A DNA stretch of 64,000 bases from Acidiphilium multivorum AIU301 (GTDB lineage Bacteria > Pseudomonadota > Alphaproteobacteria > Acetobacterales > Acetobacteraceae): assembly GCF_000202835.1 (NCBI RefSeq), contig NC_015186.1, forward strand, positions 1,612,001-1,676,000, written 5' to 3'. How positions within the stretch are numbered: position 1 is the stretch's first letter; every line of letters starts with the position of its first letter. The translations under genes were made by a program, and so were the position numbers. Shown here one piece after another: positions 25,949-34,955 of the stretch. Below the pieces are notes generated by a model. The model was not told where the DNA came from, did no database searches, and saw only the letters and a list, made by a program, of their open reading frames with translations.

Positions 25949-27346
25949 ATGCCGGACCAGACTGCGGCGACAATCGCCGCCCGCCTCGACCGTCTGCCGC
26001 CGTCGCGCACGGTCTGGACCATCATTGTCCTGATCTCGCTCGGCGGCATATTCGAATTCTATGATCTCTTTTTCACCGGCTATGTCGCTCCGGGAATGGT
26101 GGGCGACGGGCTGTTCAAGCCCGAATCGCTCGGCTTCCTCGCCGGGCTGAGCGTGCTGAAGGTCGCCGGCTTCGGCACCTTCGTCTTTGCCACCTTCGCC
26201 GGGCTCTGGGTCGGCGCGCTGATCTTCGGCCAGGTCGCCGACCGGTTCGGCCGCCGCGCCGTCTTCACCGGCTCGCTGCTGTGGTACATGGTCTGCACCG
26301 CGATCATGGCGTTCCAGACCAGCGGCCTCGCGCTCGATATCTGGCGCTTCATCGCCGGCATCGGCATCGGGGTCGAACTCGTCACCATCGATACGTTCAT
26401 ATCCGAGATCATCCCACGCGGCGAGCGCGGCAAGGCCTTCGCGGTGAACCAGTTCATCACCTTCCTCGTGGTGCCGCTGATCGCGTTCCTGGCCTATGCC
26501 ATGAAGGGCAGCAAGCCGTTCGGGCTGGACTACTGGCGGGTGCTGATCCTGATCGGCTCGGTCGGCGCCGTCGTGGTGTTTGCCCTGCAGCGCGGCATTC
26601 CGGAAAGCCCGCGCTGGCTGGCCCGCCACGGCAGGATGGCGGAGGCGGAGGCGATCGTCGCCGACATCGAGCGGCGGGTGGTGGCGGAGACCGGCGCGGC
26701 CCTGCCGCCATTGCAGCCGGCGGCCCCGGAAGAGGAAGGCGCCGGATCGATCATGGAAATCTTCGGCGCCGAATACCTGCGGCGGACGATCATCCTGTCC
26801 ATCTTCAACATGGCGCAGGTGATCGGCTTCTACGGCTTCGCCGCCTGGGTGCCGACGCTGCTGATCCATCGCGGCATCACCGTCACCCACAGTCTCGAAT
26901 ACGCCTTCATCATCGCCATCGCCAATCCGTTCGGCCCGCTGCTCGGCACGGTCTTCGCCGACCGGATCGAGCGCAAGACGCAGATCATCGGCGCGCTCGT
27001 CGTCATGACGGTCGTGATCGGCCTGTTCGCGCAGAGTTCGGCGCCGCCGGTGCTGATCGCCCTTGGCGTGCTGTTCACGCTGGCCTCGAACGTGATGTCC
27101 TTCGCCTATCACGGCTACCAGCCGGAGCTGTATCCGACCCGGATCCGCGCCCGCGCGGTCGGCTTCGTATATTCGTGGAGCCGGCTGGCGGCGGCCTTCG
27201 CCGGGCTCGCGATCGGCGTGCTGCTCGCCCGGTACGGCGTGCCGGGAGTGGCCGTGTTCATCGCCGTCGCCATGCTGGTGGGCATCGCGATGATCGCTCT
27301 CGGTCCCTCGACCAGGGGACTCGCGCTCGAGCAGATCAACCACTGA
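25949..27346 (+). CDS. MFS transporter, organic-acid/sugar symporter type (465 aa)
   Basis: Twelve membrane helices with the MFS motif A GQVADRFGRRAVF after TM2 and a second copy GTVFADRIERK after TM8. The proline- and glutamate-rich ESPRWLARHGRMAEAEAIV loop and a ~30-residue charged insertion in the central loop resemble the sugar/aromatic-acid proton symporters. GAGG precedes the ATG. It stands alone between the PsiE-like gene and hisB, so the substrate is unknown. Confidence 0.82.
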   Translation: MPDQTAATIAARLDRLPPSRTVWTIIVLISLGGIFEFYDLFFTGYVAPGMVGDGLFKPESLGFLAGLSVLKVAGFGTFVFATFAGLWVGALIFGQVADRFGRRAVFTGSLLWYMVCTAIMAFQTSGLALDIWRFIAGIGIGVELVTIDTFISEIIPRGERGKAFAVNQFITFLVVPLIAFLAYAMKGSKPFGLDYWRVLILIGSVGAVVVFALQRGIPESPRWLARHGRMAEAEAIVADIERRVVAETGAALPPLQPAAPEEEGAGSIMEIFGAEYLRRTIILSIFNMAQVIGFYGFAAWVPTLLIHRGITVTHSLEYAFIIAIANPFGPLLGTVFADRIERKTQIIGALVVMTVVIGLFAQSSAPPVLIALGVLFTLASNVMSFAYHGYQPELYPTRIRARAVGFVYSWSRLAAAFAGLAIGVLLARYGVPGVAVFIAVAMLVGIAMIALGPSTRGLALEQINH

Positions 27347-27405
27347 GCGAAGTTTCGCCGGCCGGCTGATTGGCGGGCCGGCGAAATTGGGCTAGGCCAG
27401 CGCGC

Positions 27406-27996
27406 ATGAGCCGCACTGCAAGCATCACGCGCACCACATCCGAAACATCGATCGAACTGATGCTCGACCTCGATGGCACCGGCAACACCGACATCGCCAC
27501 CGGAATCGGGTTCTTCGACCACATGCTGACCGCGCTCGGCCGGCACGCCATGCTCGACCTGATCGTCCGCGCCGAGGGCGACCTGCATATCGACGCCCAC
27601 CACACGGTGGAGGATGTCGGCATCGTGCTTGGCCAGGCGATTCGCGAGGCGCTGGGCGACAAGCGCGGCATCACCCGCTTCGGCTTCGCCGCGACCCCGA
27701 TGGACGAGGCGCTGTGCGAGGCCGCGATCGACCTTTCCGGGCGGGGGTTCCTGGTGTTCGACGTGCCGTTCGAGCGGCCGATGCTCGGCGACATGGACAC
27801 CCAGCTGGTTCAGGAATTCTTCCAGGCGCTGACCGCCAATGGCGGCTTCGCCCTGCATCTGACCCGCCGCGCCGGCCACAACGCGCATCACGTGGCCGAG
27901 GCCGCGTTCAAGGCGGCGGCACGGGCGCTGCGCATGGCCGTCGAGCCCGATCCGCGGGCCGCGGGCGCGATCCCCTCGACCAAGGGGGTGCTGTGA
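27406..27996 (+). CDS. hisB: imidazoleglycerol-phosphate dehydratase (196 aa)
   Basis: Histidine biosynthesis step 7, a manganese enzyme. The two pseudo-repeats each carry their metal motifs: GFFDHML and DAHHTVEDVGI in the first, HNAHHVAEAAFKA in the second. It is the single-function form, without a HisB phosphatase domain. The GTG of hisH overlaps its stop. It opens the his operon hisBH-GNAT-hisAFE. Confidence 0.96.
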   Translation: MSRTASITRTTSETSIELMLDLDGTGNTDIATGIGFFDHMLTALGRHAMLDLIVRAEGDLHIDAHHTVEDVGIVLGQAIREALGDKRGITRFGFAATPMDEALCEAAIDLSGRGFLVFDVPFERPMLGDMDTQLVQEFFQALTANGGFALHLTRRAGHNAHHVAEAAFKAAARALRMAVEPDPRAAGAIPSTKGVL

Positions 27997-28628
27997 GGAT
28001 TGCGGTCATCGATTACGGCAGCGGCAATCTCGCCTCGGCGGCGCGCGGGCTTGAACTCGCCGCCTCCCGTCTCGGGCTCGATGCCACCGTCTCGATTACC
28101 GACGACCCGGATATCGTTGCCGGTGCCGACCGGATCGTGCTGCCCGGCCAGGGCGCATTCGCCGACTGCGCGCACGGGCTCGCCGCGCGCCCGGGCCTTG
28201 CCGCCGCGATGCATCGGCGGGTCGAGGCCGGGGTGCCGTTTCTTGGCATCTGCGTCGGCATGCAGCTGATGGCCGAACGCGGTCTCGAACACGAAATCAC
28301 CCCCGGATTCGGGTGGATTCGCGGCGACATCGCGCCGATTCGCGCAGACGGCCTGCGCCTGCCGCACATGGGCTGGAACGAACTCGCCTTCACCCCCGGC
28401 GCGCACCCGCTGCTCGACGGGCTCACGCCGGGCGACCATGCGTATTTCGTGCATTCCTACGCCCTGCGCACGGATGATCGCGGACCGGTGATCGCGACCA
28501 CATCATATGGTGAAGAGATCGTGGCAATGGTTGCAACCGGCAACCGGGCGGGTACACAATTCCACGTTGAGAAAAGCCAGGAGGTCGGCCTGACCATTCT
28601 GGCGAATTTCCTGCGCTGGATGCCATGA
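27993..28628 (+). CDS. hisH: imidazole glycerol phosphate synthase, glutaminase subunit (211 aa)
   Basis: Releases ammonia from glutamine and channels it to HisF. The class I glutaminase nucleophile is Cys87 (LGICVGMQ), with His191 and Glu193 completing the triad in TQFHVEKSQ (Val replaces the usual Pro of HPE). It starts with GTG inside the hisB stop and overlaps the following acetyltransferase by four bases. Confidence 0.95.
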   Translation: MRIAVIDYGSGNLASAARGLELAASRLGLDATVSITDDPDIVAGADRIVLPGQGAFADCAHGLAARPGLAAAMHRRVEAGVPFLGICVGMQLMAERGLEHEITPGFGWIRGDIAPIRADGLRLPHMGWNELAFTPGAHPLLDGLTPGDHAYFVHSYALRTDDRGPVIATTSYGEEIVAMVATGNRAGTQFHVEKSQEVGLTILANFLRWMP

Positions 28629-29185
28629 TGACCCAACCGGACCTCTGCGACCTTCCTCCCCCGTCGAGCATGCAGGTCGATCGCCTGACCGCGATCGCCG
28701 ATGACGACATGCAGACGCTGTGCGAGGCCGCCGATGCGGCGATCATCGATGGCGGCGGCTTCGGCTGGCTCCGCCCACCAGGGCGCGCGGCGCTGGAGCA
28801 GTATTTCCGCGGCGTCGTGATGGTGCCGGAACGCGAACTGTTCGTCGGCCGGATGGACGGGGTGATCTACGGCGCCGCCCAGCTTGTCCGCCCGCCACGC
28901 AACAACGAGGCGCAGGCCTTCGGCGCGACGCTCGCGCATAATTTCGTCGCCCCCTACGCACGCGGCCACGGCCTGGCTCGCCTCATCGTCGAGCGGGTCG
29001 AAGACCGCGCCCGCGCCCTCGGCTATCAGGTGCTCAACCTCGATGTCCGCGCGACCCAGGACGCCGCGATCGCCCTCTACGAGCGTGCTGGTTTCGTGCG
29101 CTGGGGTACGCACCCGGCCTATGCCCGCACCGACGGGCAGACGATCGCAGGGCATTTCTACTACAAGTTGTTGCAGGCTTCCTGA
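28625..29185 (+). CDS. GNAT-family N-acetyltransferase inside the his operon (186 aa)
   Basis: A GNAT fold with the acetyl-CoA pyrophosphate loop in [18 protein letters not shown] (about 115-132) and the C-terminal [25 protein letters not shown] signature. It is locked into the operon: a four-base overlap with hisH and one base before the hisA start. The substrate is unknown. Its fixed place suggests it acts on a histidine-pathway intermediate, a protein of the pathway, or simply shares expression. Confidence 0.82.
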
Positions 29186-29186
29186 C

Positions 29187-29927
29187 ATGGCGCTGACCCT
29201 CTACCCGGCGATCGACCTCAAGGATGGCGCCTGCGTGCGTCTGCGCCGCGGCGAGATGGACCAGGCGACGGTCTATGCCGAGGATCCGGCCGCCCAGGCC
29301 CGCGCCTTCGAGGCCGCCGGATTCACAGCACTGCACGTGGTTGACCTGAACGGCGCTTTTGCCGGGCGGCCGGTGAACGGCGAGGCGGTGCGCGCGATAC
29401 TCGCCGCGGTGGCGATGCCGGTGCAGCTCGGCGGTGGCATCCGTGACATGGCGGGCATCGCCGCCTGGATCGAGCTTGGCATCTCGCGCGTCATTCTCGG
29501 CAGCGCCGCGGTGAAGAACCCTGCCCTGGTGCGCGAGGCGGCGGCCGCCTTTCCGGGGCGGATCGTCGTCGGCATCGACGCGCGGGATGGCATGGTCGCC
29601 ACCGAGGGATGGGCCGAAACATCGTCGCTGCCGGCGACCGAGATGGCGATGCGCCTGCAGGATGCCGGCATCGCCGCCATCATCCACACCGATATCGCGC
29701 GCGACGGCATGCTTCAGGGCCTCAATCTCGACGCCACCGAAGCCCTCGCCGCCGCCATCGCCATCCCGGTGATCGCCTCGGGCGGCTTGGCCGGCATCGA
29801 GGACATCCGCAACCTGCGCGCCGCCGCCGCCCGGACGCCCAATCTGGCCGGCACGATCATCGGCCGCGCCCTCTACGATGGCCGGATCGACCCGCAGGCC
29901 GCGCTGGCGGAGGCCGCCGCATGCTGA
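29187..29927 (+). CDS. hisA: ProFAR isomerase, HisA (246 aa)
   Basis: An Amadori isomerase with a (beta-alpha)8 barrel. The catalytic aspartates are Asp10 (YPAIDLKDG) and the one in [10 protein letters not shown]. The phosphate-binding loops LGGGIRD and [10 protein letters not shown] are present. It begins one base after the acetyltransferase stop and overlaps hisF by seven bases. Confidence 0.95.
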
Positions 29928-30685
29928 AGCTGCGCGTCATTCCCTGCCTCGACGTGAAGGACGGGCGCGTGGTCAAGGGGGTGAACTTCGTCTCGCTGCG
30001 CGATGCCGGCGACCCGGTGGAGCAGGCCGTGGTCTATGACCGCGCGGGCGCCGACGAACTCACCTTTCTCGACATCACCGCGAGCCATGAGAATCGCGAC
30101 ACGATCATCGACGTGGTCGGCCGCACCGCAGCCAGAGTGTTCCTGCCGCTGACCGTCGGCGGCGGCATCCGCAGCACGGATGACATGCGCCGCCTGCTGC
30201 TGGCCGGAGCCGACAAGTGCAGCATCAATTCGGCAGCCATTTCCCGCCCGGATTTCATCAACGAGGCGGCACGGAAATTCGGCAGCCAGTGCGTGGTCGT
30301 CGCGGTCGATGCGCGGCGCGGCGGCGGGGGTTGGGAAGTGTTCACCCATGGCGGACGGCGCGGCACCGGGATCGACGCGGTGGGCTGGTGCGCCGAGATG
30401 GCCGCGCGCGGCGCCGGCGAGATCCTGCTGACCTCGATGGACCGCGACGGCACCGGCCTCGGCTTCGACCTCGACCTGCTGCGCGCCGTGACCGCGCGGG
30501 TGAACATTCCCGTGATCGCCTCGGGCGGGGTCGGCACGCTCGCGCATTTCGTCGAAGGCGCCGAGGCGGGCGCGACGGGGCTGCTTGCCGCCAGCGTGTT
30601 CCATTTCGGCCAGTTCACCATCGCCGAGGTGAAGGCCGCCCTCGCCGCCGCCGGCCTGCCGGTTCGCCCGGTTGCCTCCCACTAG
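29921..30685 (+). CDS. hisF: imidazole glycerol phosphate synthase, cyclase subunit (254 aa)
   Basis: Uses ammonia from HisH to form imidazole glycerol phosphate and AICAR. Catalytic aspartates are Asp11 (PCLDVKDG) and the one in [10 protein letters not shown]. The phosphate loops VGGGIRS and [11 protein letters not shown] are intact. The start overlaps hisA by seven bases and the full family length is present. Confidence 0.96.
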
Positions 30686-30693
30686 AGATCGCC

Positions 30694-31188
30694 ATGCCCA
30701 AGAAACCCGTGAAATCCGCCGCTGCCGACGCCAAGCCGAAAAAGGTCGCTTCCGCCAAACCCAAGGTGAAGGCGAAGCCGAAGGGAGTGGGCGCCGCGAG
30801 CCATCCGCCCGTCCCGCTGCTGAACCCTGCGGCGCCGAACGCCCAGGTGCTCGACCGGCTGTGGTCGACCATCCTCGCCCGGAAAGCCGCCGATCCGCTG
30901 GTCAGTCACTCGGCCCGCCTGCTCTCGCGCGGGGTCAACAAGGTCGCCCAGAAATTCGGCGAGGAATCGGTCGAATGCCTGATCGAGGCAGTCGCCGGCA
31001 ACCGGACGGCGCTGATCGCTGAAAGCGCCGACGTGCTTTACCACCTGCTGGTCATGTGGGTCGCGGCCGGGGTACGGCCGGAAGATGTGTGGCTGGAACT
31101 CCAGCGCCGGGAAGGCATTTCCGGGATCACCGAAAAGGCGTCCCGCCCGATGCTGCTGTCGATCGCGGAAACGAGGAAAATTCCATGA
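30694..31188 (+). CDS. hisE: phosphoribosyl-ATP pyrophosphatase with Lys/Ala/Pro-rich N-terminus (164 aa)
   Basis: Second step of histidine synthesis. The all-alpha MazG-like domain occupies about residues 55-160 ([13 protein letters not shown] and [13 protein letters not shown], with metal-binding acidic residues). The first ~45 residues are a low-complexity basic tail (repeated KPK, KAKPK, AAA) not found in typical ~107-residue HisE proteins. The start ATG at 30694 is the only credible one; a start near the domain is not obvious. It overlaps the HIT gene by four bases. Confidence 0.93.
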
Positions 31189-31568
31189 AGCCAGGTGTGA
31201 GCGGCAAGCCGCCCTATGACGACCAGAACGTCTTCGCCAGGATCCTGCGCGGCGAAATCCCCTGCCGCAAGGTGTATGAGGACGAATTCGCCCTCGCCTT
31301 TCACGACATCAACCCGCAGGCGCCGCAGCATGTGCTGGTGATTCCGAAGGGGAAATACGTCTCCTTCGCCGATTTCTCTTCCACCGCCAGCGATGCCGAG
31401 ATCACCGGCTTCGTGCGCGCGGTCGGCGAGGTGGCGCGGCAGATCGGCGCGGAGGAGACCGGCTACCGGCTGCTCGCCAATATGGGGCCGGACAGCCACC
31501 AGGAAGTGCCGCATCTGCACGTGCACGTGTTCGCCGGCCGTCCGCTGGGGCCGATGCTCGTCCGCTGA
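31185..31568 (+). CDS. HIT-family nucleotide hydrolase (127 aa)
   Basis: A histidine-triad protein of the HINT branch, a purine nucleoside phosphoramidase. The triad HLHVHVFAG lies near residues 111-119, with the upstream [18 protein letters not shown] and [16 protein letters not shown] motifs. It overlaps hisE by four bases, and is the last gene of the histidine transcript. Five bases separate it from the nagA-murQ frame. Confidence 0.92.
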
Positions 31569-31572
31569 GCCG

Positions 31573-33624
31573 ATGCTGATCGCGGCCGACCGCCTGTTCC
31601 GCGACGGGGCGATCACCGGCCCCGGCGCGGTGGCCATCGAGAACGGGCGGATCGCCGCGGTGCTGGACTACGATCCGGCGAACCCGGACCTGCGGCTTCA
31701 GGGCGGCATCCTCGCCCCCGGCCTGATCGACCTGCACAATAACGGTGCCTTCGGCATCGATTGCGCCGAGGCGGATACCGATGGCTTCCGCCATCTCTGC
31801 CGGGCCCTCGGCGCGCGCGGTGTCACCAGTTTCGCGCCGACCGTCATCACCGCGCCGTTCGCCGCCCTGCATGGCGCGGCGCGGCGCCTGCGCGCGGCGC
31901 TGGCGGCGATGGCGGGCGAACCGGTCGCGCGGATGCCGGGGCTGCATCTCGAAGGCCCGTTCCTCGCACCCAACCGGCGCGGCGCCCATCGCGCGGACTG
32001 GCTGCGCGATCCGACCAGCGCGGCCTTGGACGAACTTCTGGCCGACCCCGATCTTGCCGCCACCCTGAAGCTCGTCACCCTCGCGCCGGAGCGGCCGGGC
32101 GGGCTTGCGGCGGTGCGGCGGCTGACGGATGCGGGGGTGATGGTGGCGCTGGGCCACAGCGACGCCGATGCGACAGAAGCGCAGGCCGCGATCGAGGCCG
32201 GCGCCCGCCTGGTGACGCATGTGTTCACCGCGATGCGGCCGTTTCATCATCGCGATCCGGGGCTGATCGGCGTCGCCCTCGCGGATGCGCGGGTGCATGC
32301 GTGTTTCATCGCCGATGGCGTGCATGCGGATGCGCTGGCGCTGCGCTTCGGCTTCGCCGCCGCCGGCGCGCGCGCGGTGGCCGTAACCGATTCGGTCAGC
32401 CTCGCCGGCCTGCCCGAGGGCAGCACGGCACGCTTCGGCGGCGATTCAGCGCAGGCGCGGGACGGCGCCGCGCGGCGGCCGGACGGATCGCTCACCGGCG
32501 CGACGATCACGCTCGATGAAGGGCTACGCCGCCTGATCGGCGCCGGCATCGCGCCCGCTTCCGCGCTACGCGCGGCGACCGAAGCCCCCGCCGCAGCGCT
32601 CGGACTTGCCGATCGGGGGCGGCTTGCCGCCGGGTGCCTGGCCGATCTCGTCTGGTTCGACGATGCGTTCGAGATCCGCAATGCCTGGATCGGCGGGACG
32701 GCACTGCATCCCCTGCCGGCGCCGGCGCGCCATGCCGCCGCCATGCCAGCGACGGAGACGATCCGCCGCGATCTCGACGAACTCGACCGGGCGGACAGCG
32801 CCACGATCATGGCCGCGTTGCTGGATCAGGAACAGGAAGCGGCGGCGGCGGTGAAGCGAGCGATCCCAGCGCTCGCCCGCCTGGCGGAGGACGTGGCGGT
32901 GCGGCTCGAAGCCGGCGGGCGGCTGTTCTATGCCGGCGCCGGAACCTCAGGCCGCCTCGCGGTGCTCGATGCGGTGGAATGCGGGCCAACCTTCTCGCTG
33001 CCGGACGGGGTGATCATTCCCCTGATCGCCGGCGGCGGCGCGGCGGTGACCGGCGCGGTCGAGGGCGCAGAAGACGATGCCGCCGCCGCCGCCGCCCTGC
33101 TCGATGACCACAAGGCGGGCCCGGCGGATGTTCTCGTCGGCATCGCCGCCTCCGGGCGGACGCCGTTCACCCTCGGCGCGCTGCGCGCCGCCGCCGCGCG
33201 CGGCCTGCTGACCGGGGCTATCGTCAATGCCGATGGTCCGCTCGCCACTTCGGCCGACATCGCGGTGGTGATCGCGACGGGTGCCGAAGTGCTCGCCGGC
33301 TCGACCCGGCTTTCGGCCGGCACCAGCCAGAAACTGGCCCTCAACGCGCTCTCCACCACGGTGATGATGCGCCTCGGCAAGACATTCGGCCCCTATATGG
33401 TCGATCTCCGCGCCACCAACGCGAAGCTGCGCGCCCGCGCCATCCGCATTGTCCGCGCGATTGCCGGCGCGCCCGAGGCCGATGCGAAAGATGCCCTTGA
33501 AACAAGCGGTTACGAAGTAAAGACCGCCATCGTCATGCTCATGTTGCGAATCGGCACGACCGAGGCGCGCGCGCGCCTCGCGGGGGCGGGCGGACGATTG
33601 CGCACCGCGCTGGACGGGGCATAG
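31573..33624 (+). CDS. nagA-murQ: NagA-MurQ fusion: GlcNAc-6-P deacetylase and MurNAc-6-P etherase (683 aa)
   Basis: One uninterrupted frame encodes two enzymes of cell-wall sugar recycling. Residues 1-~380 are NagA (HLEGPFLAPNRRGAH, THVFTAMRPFHHRDPG, FIADGVHADA, AVTDSVS), which deacetylates GlcNAc-6-P. Residues ~391-683 are MurQ (GAGTSGRLAVLDAVECGPTF, LIAGG, STRLSAGTSQKLALNALST), which converts MurNAc-6-P to GlcNAc-6-P, the NagA substrate. A ~15-residue Ala/Pro linker joins them. An in-frame ATG at 32743 could also start MurQ alone. No stop separates the halves. It starts five bases after the HIT gene. Confidence 0.9.
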   Translation: MLIAADRLFRDGAITGPGAVAIENGRIAAVLDYDPANPDLRLQGGILAPGLIDLHNNGAFGIDCAEADTDGFRHLCRALGARGVTSFAPTVITAPFAALHGAARRLRAALAAMAGEPVARMPGLHLEGPFLAPNRRGAHRADWLRDPTSAALDELLADPDLAATLKLVTLAPERPGGLAAVRRLTDAGVMVALGHSDADATEAQAAIEAGARLVTHVFTAMRPFHHRDPGLIGVALADARVHACFIADGVHADALALRFGFAAAGARAVAVTDSVSLAGLPEGSTARFGGDSAQARDGAARRPDGSLTGATITLDEGLRRLIGAGIAPASALRAATEAPAAALGLADRGRLAAGCLADLVWFDDAFEIRNAWIGGTALHPLPAPARHAAAMPATETIRRDLDELDRADSATIMAALLDQEQEAAAAVKRAIPALARLAEDVAVRLEAGGRLFYAGAGTSGRLAVLDAVECGPTFSLPDGVIIPLIAGGGAAVTGAVEGAEDDAAAAAALLDDHKAGPADVLVGIAASGRTPFTLGALRAAAARGLLTGAIVNADGPLATSADIAVVIATGAEVLAGSTRLSAGTSQKLALNALSTTVMMRLGKTFGPYMVDLRATNAKLRARAIRIVRAIAGAPEADAKDALETSGYEVKTAIVMLMLRIGTTEARARLAGAGGRLRTALDGA

Positions 33625-33668
33625 TCCCTCCCGCATTGGCCCGCTCACGGCCGAGGATGGAGGAAATC

Positions 33669-34955
33669 ATGAGCCAGACGGCAGACCAGGGCTTCGAAAG
33701 CGTCTTCACGCTCGAAGCCACCCAGTTGAAATACGGCATCGGCGCGGCTGACGAACTCGGCTGGGAGGCGAAGCGCCTTGGCCTCCGCCATGTCATCCTC
33801 GTCGCCGACCCGATGCTGCACCAGTTCGGCCTGATCGAGCGAATCGAGGGGATCCTCGCCGCCTCCGGCATAACCTTCGACCGGTTCGAGGACATCCATG
33901 TCGAGCCGACGATCGACAGTTTCGCCCGCGCCGCCGCCTTCGCGGAGGCGCATCCCTGCGACGGGTTCATCGCCCTCGGCGGCGGCTCGACGATCGACAC
34001 CGCGAAAGTCGCCAACCTGATCAGCACCCATGGCGGGGCGGTGATCGACTATGTCAACCCGCCGATCGGCGGCGGCAGGAAGCCGCCCGGACCGCTGCGG
34101 CCGCTGATCGCGCTGCCCACTACTTCCGGCTCCGGGTCGGAGGCGACCACCGTCGCCGTGCTCGACATCCCCGAACTCAAGGTCAAGAGCGGGATCTCGC
34201 ACCGCTACATGCGGCCGACCCTCGCGATGGTCGACCCTGCCCTCGCGCGGACGACACCAGCCGGCGTCACCGCCTCGGCCGGGCTCGACGTGATTTGCCA
34301 TGCGGTCGAGAGCTATATCTCGAAACCGTTCAACCAGCGGCCGAAGCCGGCCTCGCCGGACGATCGCCCGCCCTATCAGGGCTCCAACCCGGTGGCCGAT
34401 ATCTGGTCGCTCCAGGCGATCGAGTTCGGCGGGAAATATCTCGCCCGCGCCGTGGCCGATGGCGAGGATTACGAGGCGCGCGGGACGATGATGCTCGGCG
34501 CCACCATGGCCGGCATCGGCTTCGGCACAGCCGGCGTGCACATTCCCCATGCCTGCGCCTATCCGATCGCGGGGCTCAAGCACGTCTATCACGCCCCAGG
34601 CTATTCGCGGAACCACGCCTTCGTGCCGCACGGCTTCTCGGTGATCGTCACCTCGCCGGCGGCGTTCCGCTACACCTATGATGCGGCGCCCGAGAAGCAT
34701 ATCCGCGCCGCCAGCCTGTTGCGCGGCCACGATATCGAGAATCCCGGCCCGGACTCGCTGCCCGCGGCACTGATCGACCTGATGAAGGCGGTGGGCGCGC
34801 CCTCGGGCATCGCCGAACTTGGCTACACCGAAGCGGATATTCCCGCGATCATCGACGGCGCGCTGAAGCAGCAGCGCCTGCTCGCCGGATCGCCCAAGCC
34901 GGTGGATGCCGGCATCCTGGAGACAATACTGCGCCAGTCGATGCGCAACTGGTGA
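33669..34955 (+). CDS. iron-containing alcohol dehydrogenase, hydroxyacid-oxoacid transhydrogenase type (428 aa)
   Basis: A group III Fe-dependent dehydrogenase closest in pattern to HOT/ADHFE1, which oxidises 4-hydroxybutyrate to succinic semialdehyde while reducing 2-oxoglutarate. Visible are the nucleotide motif GGGSTIDTAK (about 109-118), TTSGSGSEAT, the metal motif DVICHAVESY, PYQGSNPVAD and the histidines in HIPHACAYPI and HAPGYSRNHA. GGAGG precedes the ATG. It lies 27 bases before a lactonase gene, the same pairing as blcB-blcC of Agrobacterium. Confidence 0.82.
   Translation: MSQTADQGFESVFTLEATQLKYGIGAADELGWEAKRLGLRHVILVADPMLHQFGLIERIEGILAASGITFDRFEDIHVEPTIDSFARAAAFAEAHPCDGFIALGGGSTIDTAKVANLISTHGGAVIDYVNPPIGGGRKPPGPLRPLIALPTTSGSGSEATTVAVLDIPELKVKSGISHRYMRPTLAMVDPALARTTPAGVTASAGLDVICHAVESYISKPFNQRPKPASPDDRPPYQGSNPVADIWSLQAIEFGGKYLARAVADGEDYEARGTMMLGATMAGIGFGTAGVHIPHACAYPIAGLKHVYHAPGYSRNHAFVPHGFSVIVTSPAAFRYTYDAAPEKHIRAASLLRGHDIENPGPDSLPAALIDLMKAVGAPSGIAELGYTEADIPAIIDGALKQQRLLAGSPKPVDAGILETILRQSMRNW

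Follow-up and report, generated by a model that had tools for sequence, protein, structure and literature searches.

A gene joining NagA and MurQ, two peptidoglycan-recycling families, in a single frame in Acidiphilium and related genera

In Acidiphilium multivorum AIU301, an open reading frame runs from an N-acetylglucosamine-6-phosphate deacetylase (NagA) into an N-acetylmuramic acid 6-phosphate etherase (MurQ), which raises the question of whether the two are made and used as one protein. The window, that is, the whole stretch of DNA analyzed, comprises 64,000 nucleotides of contig NC_015186.1 (positions 1,612,001 to 1,676,000, forward strand). A sequence-only reading had claimed a single-frame NagA-MurQ fusion here, and this was borne out: there is one open frame, both families are matched, and the joint is conserved. 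The gene and its parts are as follows.

31573 to 33624, + strand: NagA-MurQ fusion gene, 683 amino acids, no internal stop in the translation, start and frame common to relatives
31573 to 32700, + strand: NagA half, residues 1 to 376, N-acetylglucosamine-6-phosphate deacetylase (TIGR00221; PDB 2vhl and 1ymy; aligned residues)
32701 to 32751, + strand: linker, residues 377 to 393, borders approximate (alignment of fused relatives, AlphaFold2 pLDDT, codon counts)
32752 to 33621, + strand: MurQ half, residues 394 to 683, N-acetylmuramic acid 6-phosphate etherase (PRK05441; PDB 4s12 and 4lzj; Foldseek)

Translation of the plus strand from 31573 to 33624 yielded 683 codons and one terminal stop. 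Within the product, NagA extended over approximately residues 18 to 376 and MurQ over approximately residues 392 to 681, separated by a linker of about 17 residues. The NCBIfam NagA profile TIGR00221 matched residues 18 to 373 (profile positions 22 to 377 of 380; E value, 3e−75; 253.5 bits against a cut-off of 225.65), and two MurQ profiles exceeded their cut-offs on the second half, PRK05441 over residues 392 to 681 (E value, 2.8e−99; 331.9 bits; cut-off, 168) and PRK12570 (284.9 bits; cut-off, 255). Two narrower equivalogs fell below theirs, PRK11170 for NagA (206.4 bits; cut-off, 483) and TIGR00274 for MurQ (275.4 bits; cut-off, 302). Matches to PDB chains divided the protein likewise, with NagA chains reaching up to residue 377 and MurQ chains covering residues 395 to 680. 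From 20 fused sequences, AlphaFold2 predicted two confident domains (mean pLDDT, 85.9), the sole segment with a pLDDT below 50 being residues 384 to 394, predicted to be disordered; with a pTM of 0.59, the model does not fix the placement of the NagA half relative to the MurQ half. Foldseek matched the NagA structure 2vhl (TMt, 0.87) and the MurQ structure 4s12_A (TMt, 0.94), and each half resembles an ordinary enzyme.

The MurQ half shares its fold, over its full length, with MurQ of Haemophilus influenzae (4lzj) and Yersinia enterocolitica (4s12), and is 45% identical to 4s12_A when the structures are aligned; these two MurQs are free proteins, whereas in the window MurQ forms the C-terminal half. 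NagA of E. coli (1ymy) and Bacillus subtilis (2vhl) is alike in full length and active-site residues but again free, and the N-terminal metal motif reads DLHNNG in the window as opposed to DIHIHG in B. subtilis and DVQLNG in E. coli.

The joint was found open well beyond the window. Among the 60 relatives searched, Acidiphilium accounts for 13 genomes, the window included, and in 12 of them the frame crosses the joint: 11 fusions are whole, one (G012) is in pieces with residues 271 to 681 crossing the joint, and the one exception is G010. A second genus, g93, matched in 35 of 38 genomes, with a stop-free frame across the joint in all 35, of which 30 are nearly whole and 5 are partial or split over two contigs; the three g93 genomes with no fusion match are 81 to 85% complete. 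In a third genus, g24, the joint is open in its one genome, G035. There (L142:9307-11308), the NagA half is split: its N-terminal part is read in a different frame and about 20 residues are lacking, which may reflect either a disrupted gene or an error in the draft. In the family (299 genomes), all fusions among the matches listed come from Acidiphilium, g93, and g24 and rank first, and a family search of 60 genomes around G104 gave nothing further. The search of other Acetobacteraceae that the sequence-only reading had proposed thus located the fusion in Acidiphilium, g93, and one g24 genome.

Wider sampling retrieved the window as the only sequence spanning both halves, both among 385 genomes of the class (limit, 1e−60) and among 398 of the phylum (limit, 1e−70), limits at which a very divergent fusion could be missed. 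Seventy-nine loci from named species genomes comprised 9 fused and 70 unfused cases, the fused ones belonging either to Acidiphilium or to metagenome-assembled genomes (MAGs) that the trees place with g93. The protein of Acidiphilium rubrum is 68% identical to that of the window, and Acidiphilium MAGs also match. A Geothrix locus (L100) that matched over both halves is not a fusion, as a stop lies between them, and none of 274 matching plasmid records has one place covering at least 80% of the query. In several g93 fusions (L134 of G314, G1065, G1073, G1074, and G1046), the match ends about 25 residues before the MurQ C terminus, and in L134 a stop codon stands about 25 residues short of it.

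The catalytic residues that could be aligned are present in both halves. In alignment with 1ymy, the NagA half has the residues corresponding to E. coli E131, H195, H216, R227, H251, and D273, of which we take E131, H195, H216, H251, and D273 to be metal and catalytic residues; the D273N mutant 2p53 departs from 1ymy at the aligned place. In the NagA half, E127, H195, H216, R227, H251, and D273 are invariant among 20 aligned fused sequences. Residue 219 is Thr in the window and in L002 to L006 versus Asn in E. coli NagA; L007 to L011 and the remaining fused rows have Asn. On the MurQ side, E469 (in DAVECGPTF) and E500 (in VEGAEDD) are invariant in the same number of sequences; they are presumably the counterparts of the important E. 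coli MurQ glutamates E83 and E114, with the same spacing of 31 residues. Purifying selection acts on both halves, with dN/dS values over seven fused-gene pairs of 0.12 to 0.26 for NagA and 0.11 to 0.26 for MurQ. The linker measured 11 to 19 codons in relatives and its dN/dS exceeded 1 in four of the seven pairs, a ratio resting on few sites and with L009 common to two of the pairs. The linker varies in sequence and length, yet none of the genomes named above has a stop or frameshift at the joint, which is the pattern that a fused product requires.

Taken from these data, the gene very probably encodes a bifunctional cytoplasmic salvage enzyme that would convert MurNAc-6-P to GlcN-6-P and that arose, most likely once, by loss of a stop codon. 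AnmK would convert anhydro-MurNAc to MurNAc-6-P and so feed the fusion, the MurQ half would release GlcNAc-6-P and D-lactate, and the NagA half would remove acetate from GlcNAc-6-P to leave GlcN-6-P. GlmM and GlmU would lead GlcN-6-P to UDP-GlcNAc, and it is mainly by this path that the product would return to peptidoglycan synthesis. That both halves are active, that flux runs this way, and that joining brings a benefit are inferred. Since a flexible linker joins the halves, the likely benefit would be that two consecutive enzymes are kept together in equal amounts, and not that a tunnel is built between them.

The genomes searched for pathway genes (17 fused and 5 unfused) are consistent with such a role. 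The window's genome (G000) holds one place only for either half (E value, 1e−3 or better), with no second NagA or MurQ. AnmK was present in all 22 genomes (in G000 at 468.7 against a cut-off of 352), as was a family 3 glycoside hydrolase of the NagZ type. The GlcN-6-P deaminase NagB exceeded its cut-off in none of the 22; weak matches occurred in nine, six of them fused. Relatives of the NagB-II-like protein of the unfused genome G018 were found at 63 to 64% identity only in G094 and G169, and the remaining 19 genomes each gave one match of 32 to 35%, in 18 cases within an open frame of at least 609 codons, a length that fits GlmS; the single match of G062, in a frame of 368 codons, may be of either kind. 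Since these searches identified no GlcN-6-P deaminase in the fused genomes, wall synthesis is the most likely destination of the product. The BadF-family GlcNAc kinase likewise exceeded its cut-off in none of the 17 fused genomes, two of which gave weak matches, and did so only in G018 and G062. For AmgK of the MurU route, PF01636 identified four places in G000 and no AmgK candidate among them: one is a homoserine kinase, one is without an NCBIfam name, and the other two appeared by eye to be a trehalose-synthase-like fusion and a P-loop-kinase-like ORF.

The MurQ tree (58 rows, rooted by midpoint) supports one origin of the fusion. The 22 fused rows and the free MurQ of G010 formed one group (99/93), which G018 and G062 adjoined, the fork of all 25 rows being supported at 100/99 under the midpoint root. 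G018 (genus g7, same family) keeps a nagA-murQ-anmK run in the order of the fusion, nagA then murQ, with 54 to 55% identity to it. Its two frames overlap by 8 bases (ATGTCTGA; the murQ start was chosen by hand, and GGAGG precedes its ATG). Unlike in the fusion, a TGA within this overlap keeps two proteins, and a two-SIS-domain NagB-II-like gene (201.5; cut-off, 430) lies ahead of nagA. In G062 (genus g51), the run is nagA, kinase::murQ, a sodium:solute symporter gene, and anmK. Its MurQ is likewise C-terminal in a fusion, but the partner is a BadF/BadG-type kinase domain and not NagA (L137:3401-5266, minus strand; 621 amino acids). The earlier pathway reading, in which the fusion would join consecutive recycling steps, is strengthened, because these nearest relatives without the NagA-MurQ fusion keep nagA and murQ beside anmK. 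Loss of the stop codon in an overlapping nagA-murQ pair is the likely origin of the fusion; a single event, in an ancestor of Acidiphilium and the two related genera, would have removed the stop between the adjacent genes.

The exception within Acidiphilium, G010, carries a free MurQ at the locus (L143), where the NagA half is absent. It was placed inside Acidiphilium on the MurQ tree (forks at 93/88 and 92/86, then 80/31 and 89/88), and the constraint that the 22 fused MurQs form a clade without it gave a p-AU of 0.054, which fits a position inside the fused group. The gap of 96 bases between its HIT gene and murQ (L143:7010-7105) includes the repeat CGTCATTGCGAG..., which recurs 971 bases away, its first 12 bases at L143 6075, between hisF and hisE. 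Given this repeat and its place on the tree, G010 probably lost its NagA half. Another NagA elsewhere in G010, 39% identical, groups with the other separate NagAs. The NagA tree (46 rows, 20 of them fused NagAs) did not recover the fused NagAs as one group, as the unfused G018, G062, G094, and G169 were placed next to the g93 fusions (93/85); a tree uniting all 20 in a single clade was not rejected either (p-AU, 0.305). In genus g83 (L140 and L138; G094 and G169), a NagA of the fused kind adjoins a NagB-II-like gene, and MurQ belongs to another branch and lies on another contig from NagA.

The surroundings of the gene in the window are close-packed.

27370 to 31188, + strand: hisB, hisH, ORF 28625-29185, hisA, hisF, and hisE, upstream of the fusion (NCBIfam; Pfam PRA-PH)
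31185 to 31568, + strand: HIT-domain gene directly upstream of the fusion (Pfam PF01230; E value, 8.8e−25), its start overlapping the hisE end

Four bases separate the HIT stop codon from the ATG of the fusion. The earlier placement of the fusion "directly behind the histidine operon" is accordingly inexact, as the HIT gene intervenes after hisE. ORF 28625-29185 overlaps hisH and adjoins hisA; it had no NCBIfam family match at the limit used and resembles a GNAT acetyltransferase by eye. Downstream of the fusion lie genes for an iron-type alcohol dehydrogenase and a metallo-beta-lactamase-fold protein. In all eight Acidiphilium contexts (L031, L032, L037, L143, L144, L145, L147, and L148), hisE and HIT genes precede the fusion, or the free murQ in G010. 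No his gene was matched in the regions of L131 to L136, L036, L033, L043, and L142. A tRNA-Thr gene lies 13 to 26 bases ahead of the fusion in four of the six g93 regions read (L131 to L134) and in the MAG locus L036, and 660 bases ahead in L136 (g93); no tRNA was found near the fusion in L135, L033, L043, and L142. Membership of the fusion in the histidine operon in general was rejected, as the his position was seen in Acidiphilium only and not in g93; the g93 fusions sit elsewhere, so the histidine neighborhood is a local matter. A scan of 27000 to 34500 for promoters and terminators gave no promoter-like and one terminator-like site, no more than in shuffled sequence.

A more ambitious version of the salvage reading holds that the protein is dedicated to peptidoglycan salvage in lineages that no longer break down amino sugars, and that an overlapping pair was fused, the neighboring deaminase was lost, and a build-up of GlcNAc-6-P is averted, perhaps by passing from site to site. 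We consider this whole sequence of events unlikely. The apparent absence of a deaminase does not track the fusion exactly, since the unfused G010 showed none either and the G062 match may be of either kind. Two papers on the alphaproteobacterium Caulobacter describe it as lacking MurQ and relying on the MurU route (PMC13046382, PMC11980594). The former reports that deletion of both Caulobacter nagA genes at once was not achieved and suggests that accumulating GlcNAc-6-P may be toxic, possibly by way of NagB (PMC13046382). Should the fused lineages really lack NagB, harm from GlcNAc-6-P would need a cause other than NagB.

Channelling of GlcNAc-6-P inside the protein, with the MurQ half handing it directly to the NagA half, appears improbable when taken by itself. 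The presence of consecutive steps in one chain, conserved across three genera, and the single joining event on the MurQ tree are what such an arrangement might leave behind, but the linker is variable in length and sequence, with dN/dS above 1 in most of the pairs, and is predicted to be disordered, and G010 has MurQ alone.

It is also quite improbable that an internal start yields free MurQ, either in addition to the fusion or as the main product, which would leave the fusion partly nominal. The codon in question is the following.

32743 to 32745, + strand: internal ATG (residue 391), possible MurQ start, no Shine-Dalgarno-like motif before it

This ATG, which is in frame just ahead of the MurQ half and which the sequence-only reading had named as a possible sole start for MurQ, is present but not conserved, being in place in 2 of 22 junction sequences (the window and its 93%-identical relative). 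Other candidates are scattered: an ATG 2 to 12 residues past the TE motif in L003, L006, L009, L131, L132, and L142; a Shine-Dalgarno-preceded start at −17 in L007 and L008 (GTG) and in L135 (TTG); and a Shine-Dalgarno-preceded GTG or TTG 28 to 57 residues into MurQ in L001, L002, L003, L004, L007, and L008. MurQ is, moreover, a single protein elsewhere and in G010. Against this, no ATG near the joint has a Shine-Dalgarno-like motif, a simple motif and a weak guide, and no Shine-Dalgarno-preceded start ahead of the MurQ half is common beyond L007 and L008 and L135. An internal MurQ start is thus weakly supported.

A dead or substrate-changed half, with the fusion serving a different role such as that of a regulator like glucokinase regulatory protein, is less probable again. 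That protein is a MurQ-related regulator, and the MurQ half matches its domains, as does the MurQ part of G062; the Thr at residue 219 of the NagA half and the scores below cut-off for TIGR00274 and PRK11170 could also be read as signs of change. The key residues of NagA and MurQ are nevertheless invariant in 20 fused sequences, dN/dS is low in both halves, and the genome offers no other NagA or MurQ match. Finally, a sequencing or assembly error that removed a stop between two genes, raised earlier as a possible refutation, has a negligible probability and is excluded by the joint being open in genomes from three genera.

The bifunctional salvage enzyme preferred here is a new arrangement and not a new kind of enzyme, because NagA and MurQ are both known families. 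The sequence-only reading had remarked that it knew of no described NagA-MurQ fusion; none was found either in the open-license full-text literature searched by title and abstract, and a description or annotation may exist outside that literature. The same literature yielded no paper on peptidoglycan recycling in Acidiphilium. Two plasmids bring the genes close together: on pHIC of Haliovirga abyssi and on pCO-6 of Chelatococcus, however, murQ comes first and the proteins are separate, with a SIS-domain gene between murQ and nagA in pCO-6. For annotation, the fusion would suggest caution, as a name taken from the best hit may describe just one half. For the biology of this acidophile group, it would mean that two cell-wall recycling steps are tied into one protein, and the separate overlapping genes, the fusion, and the MurQ that is free again would form a natural series in which the worth of fusing consecutive enzymes may be tested.
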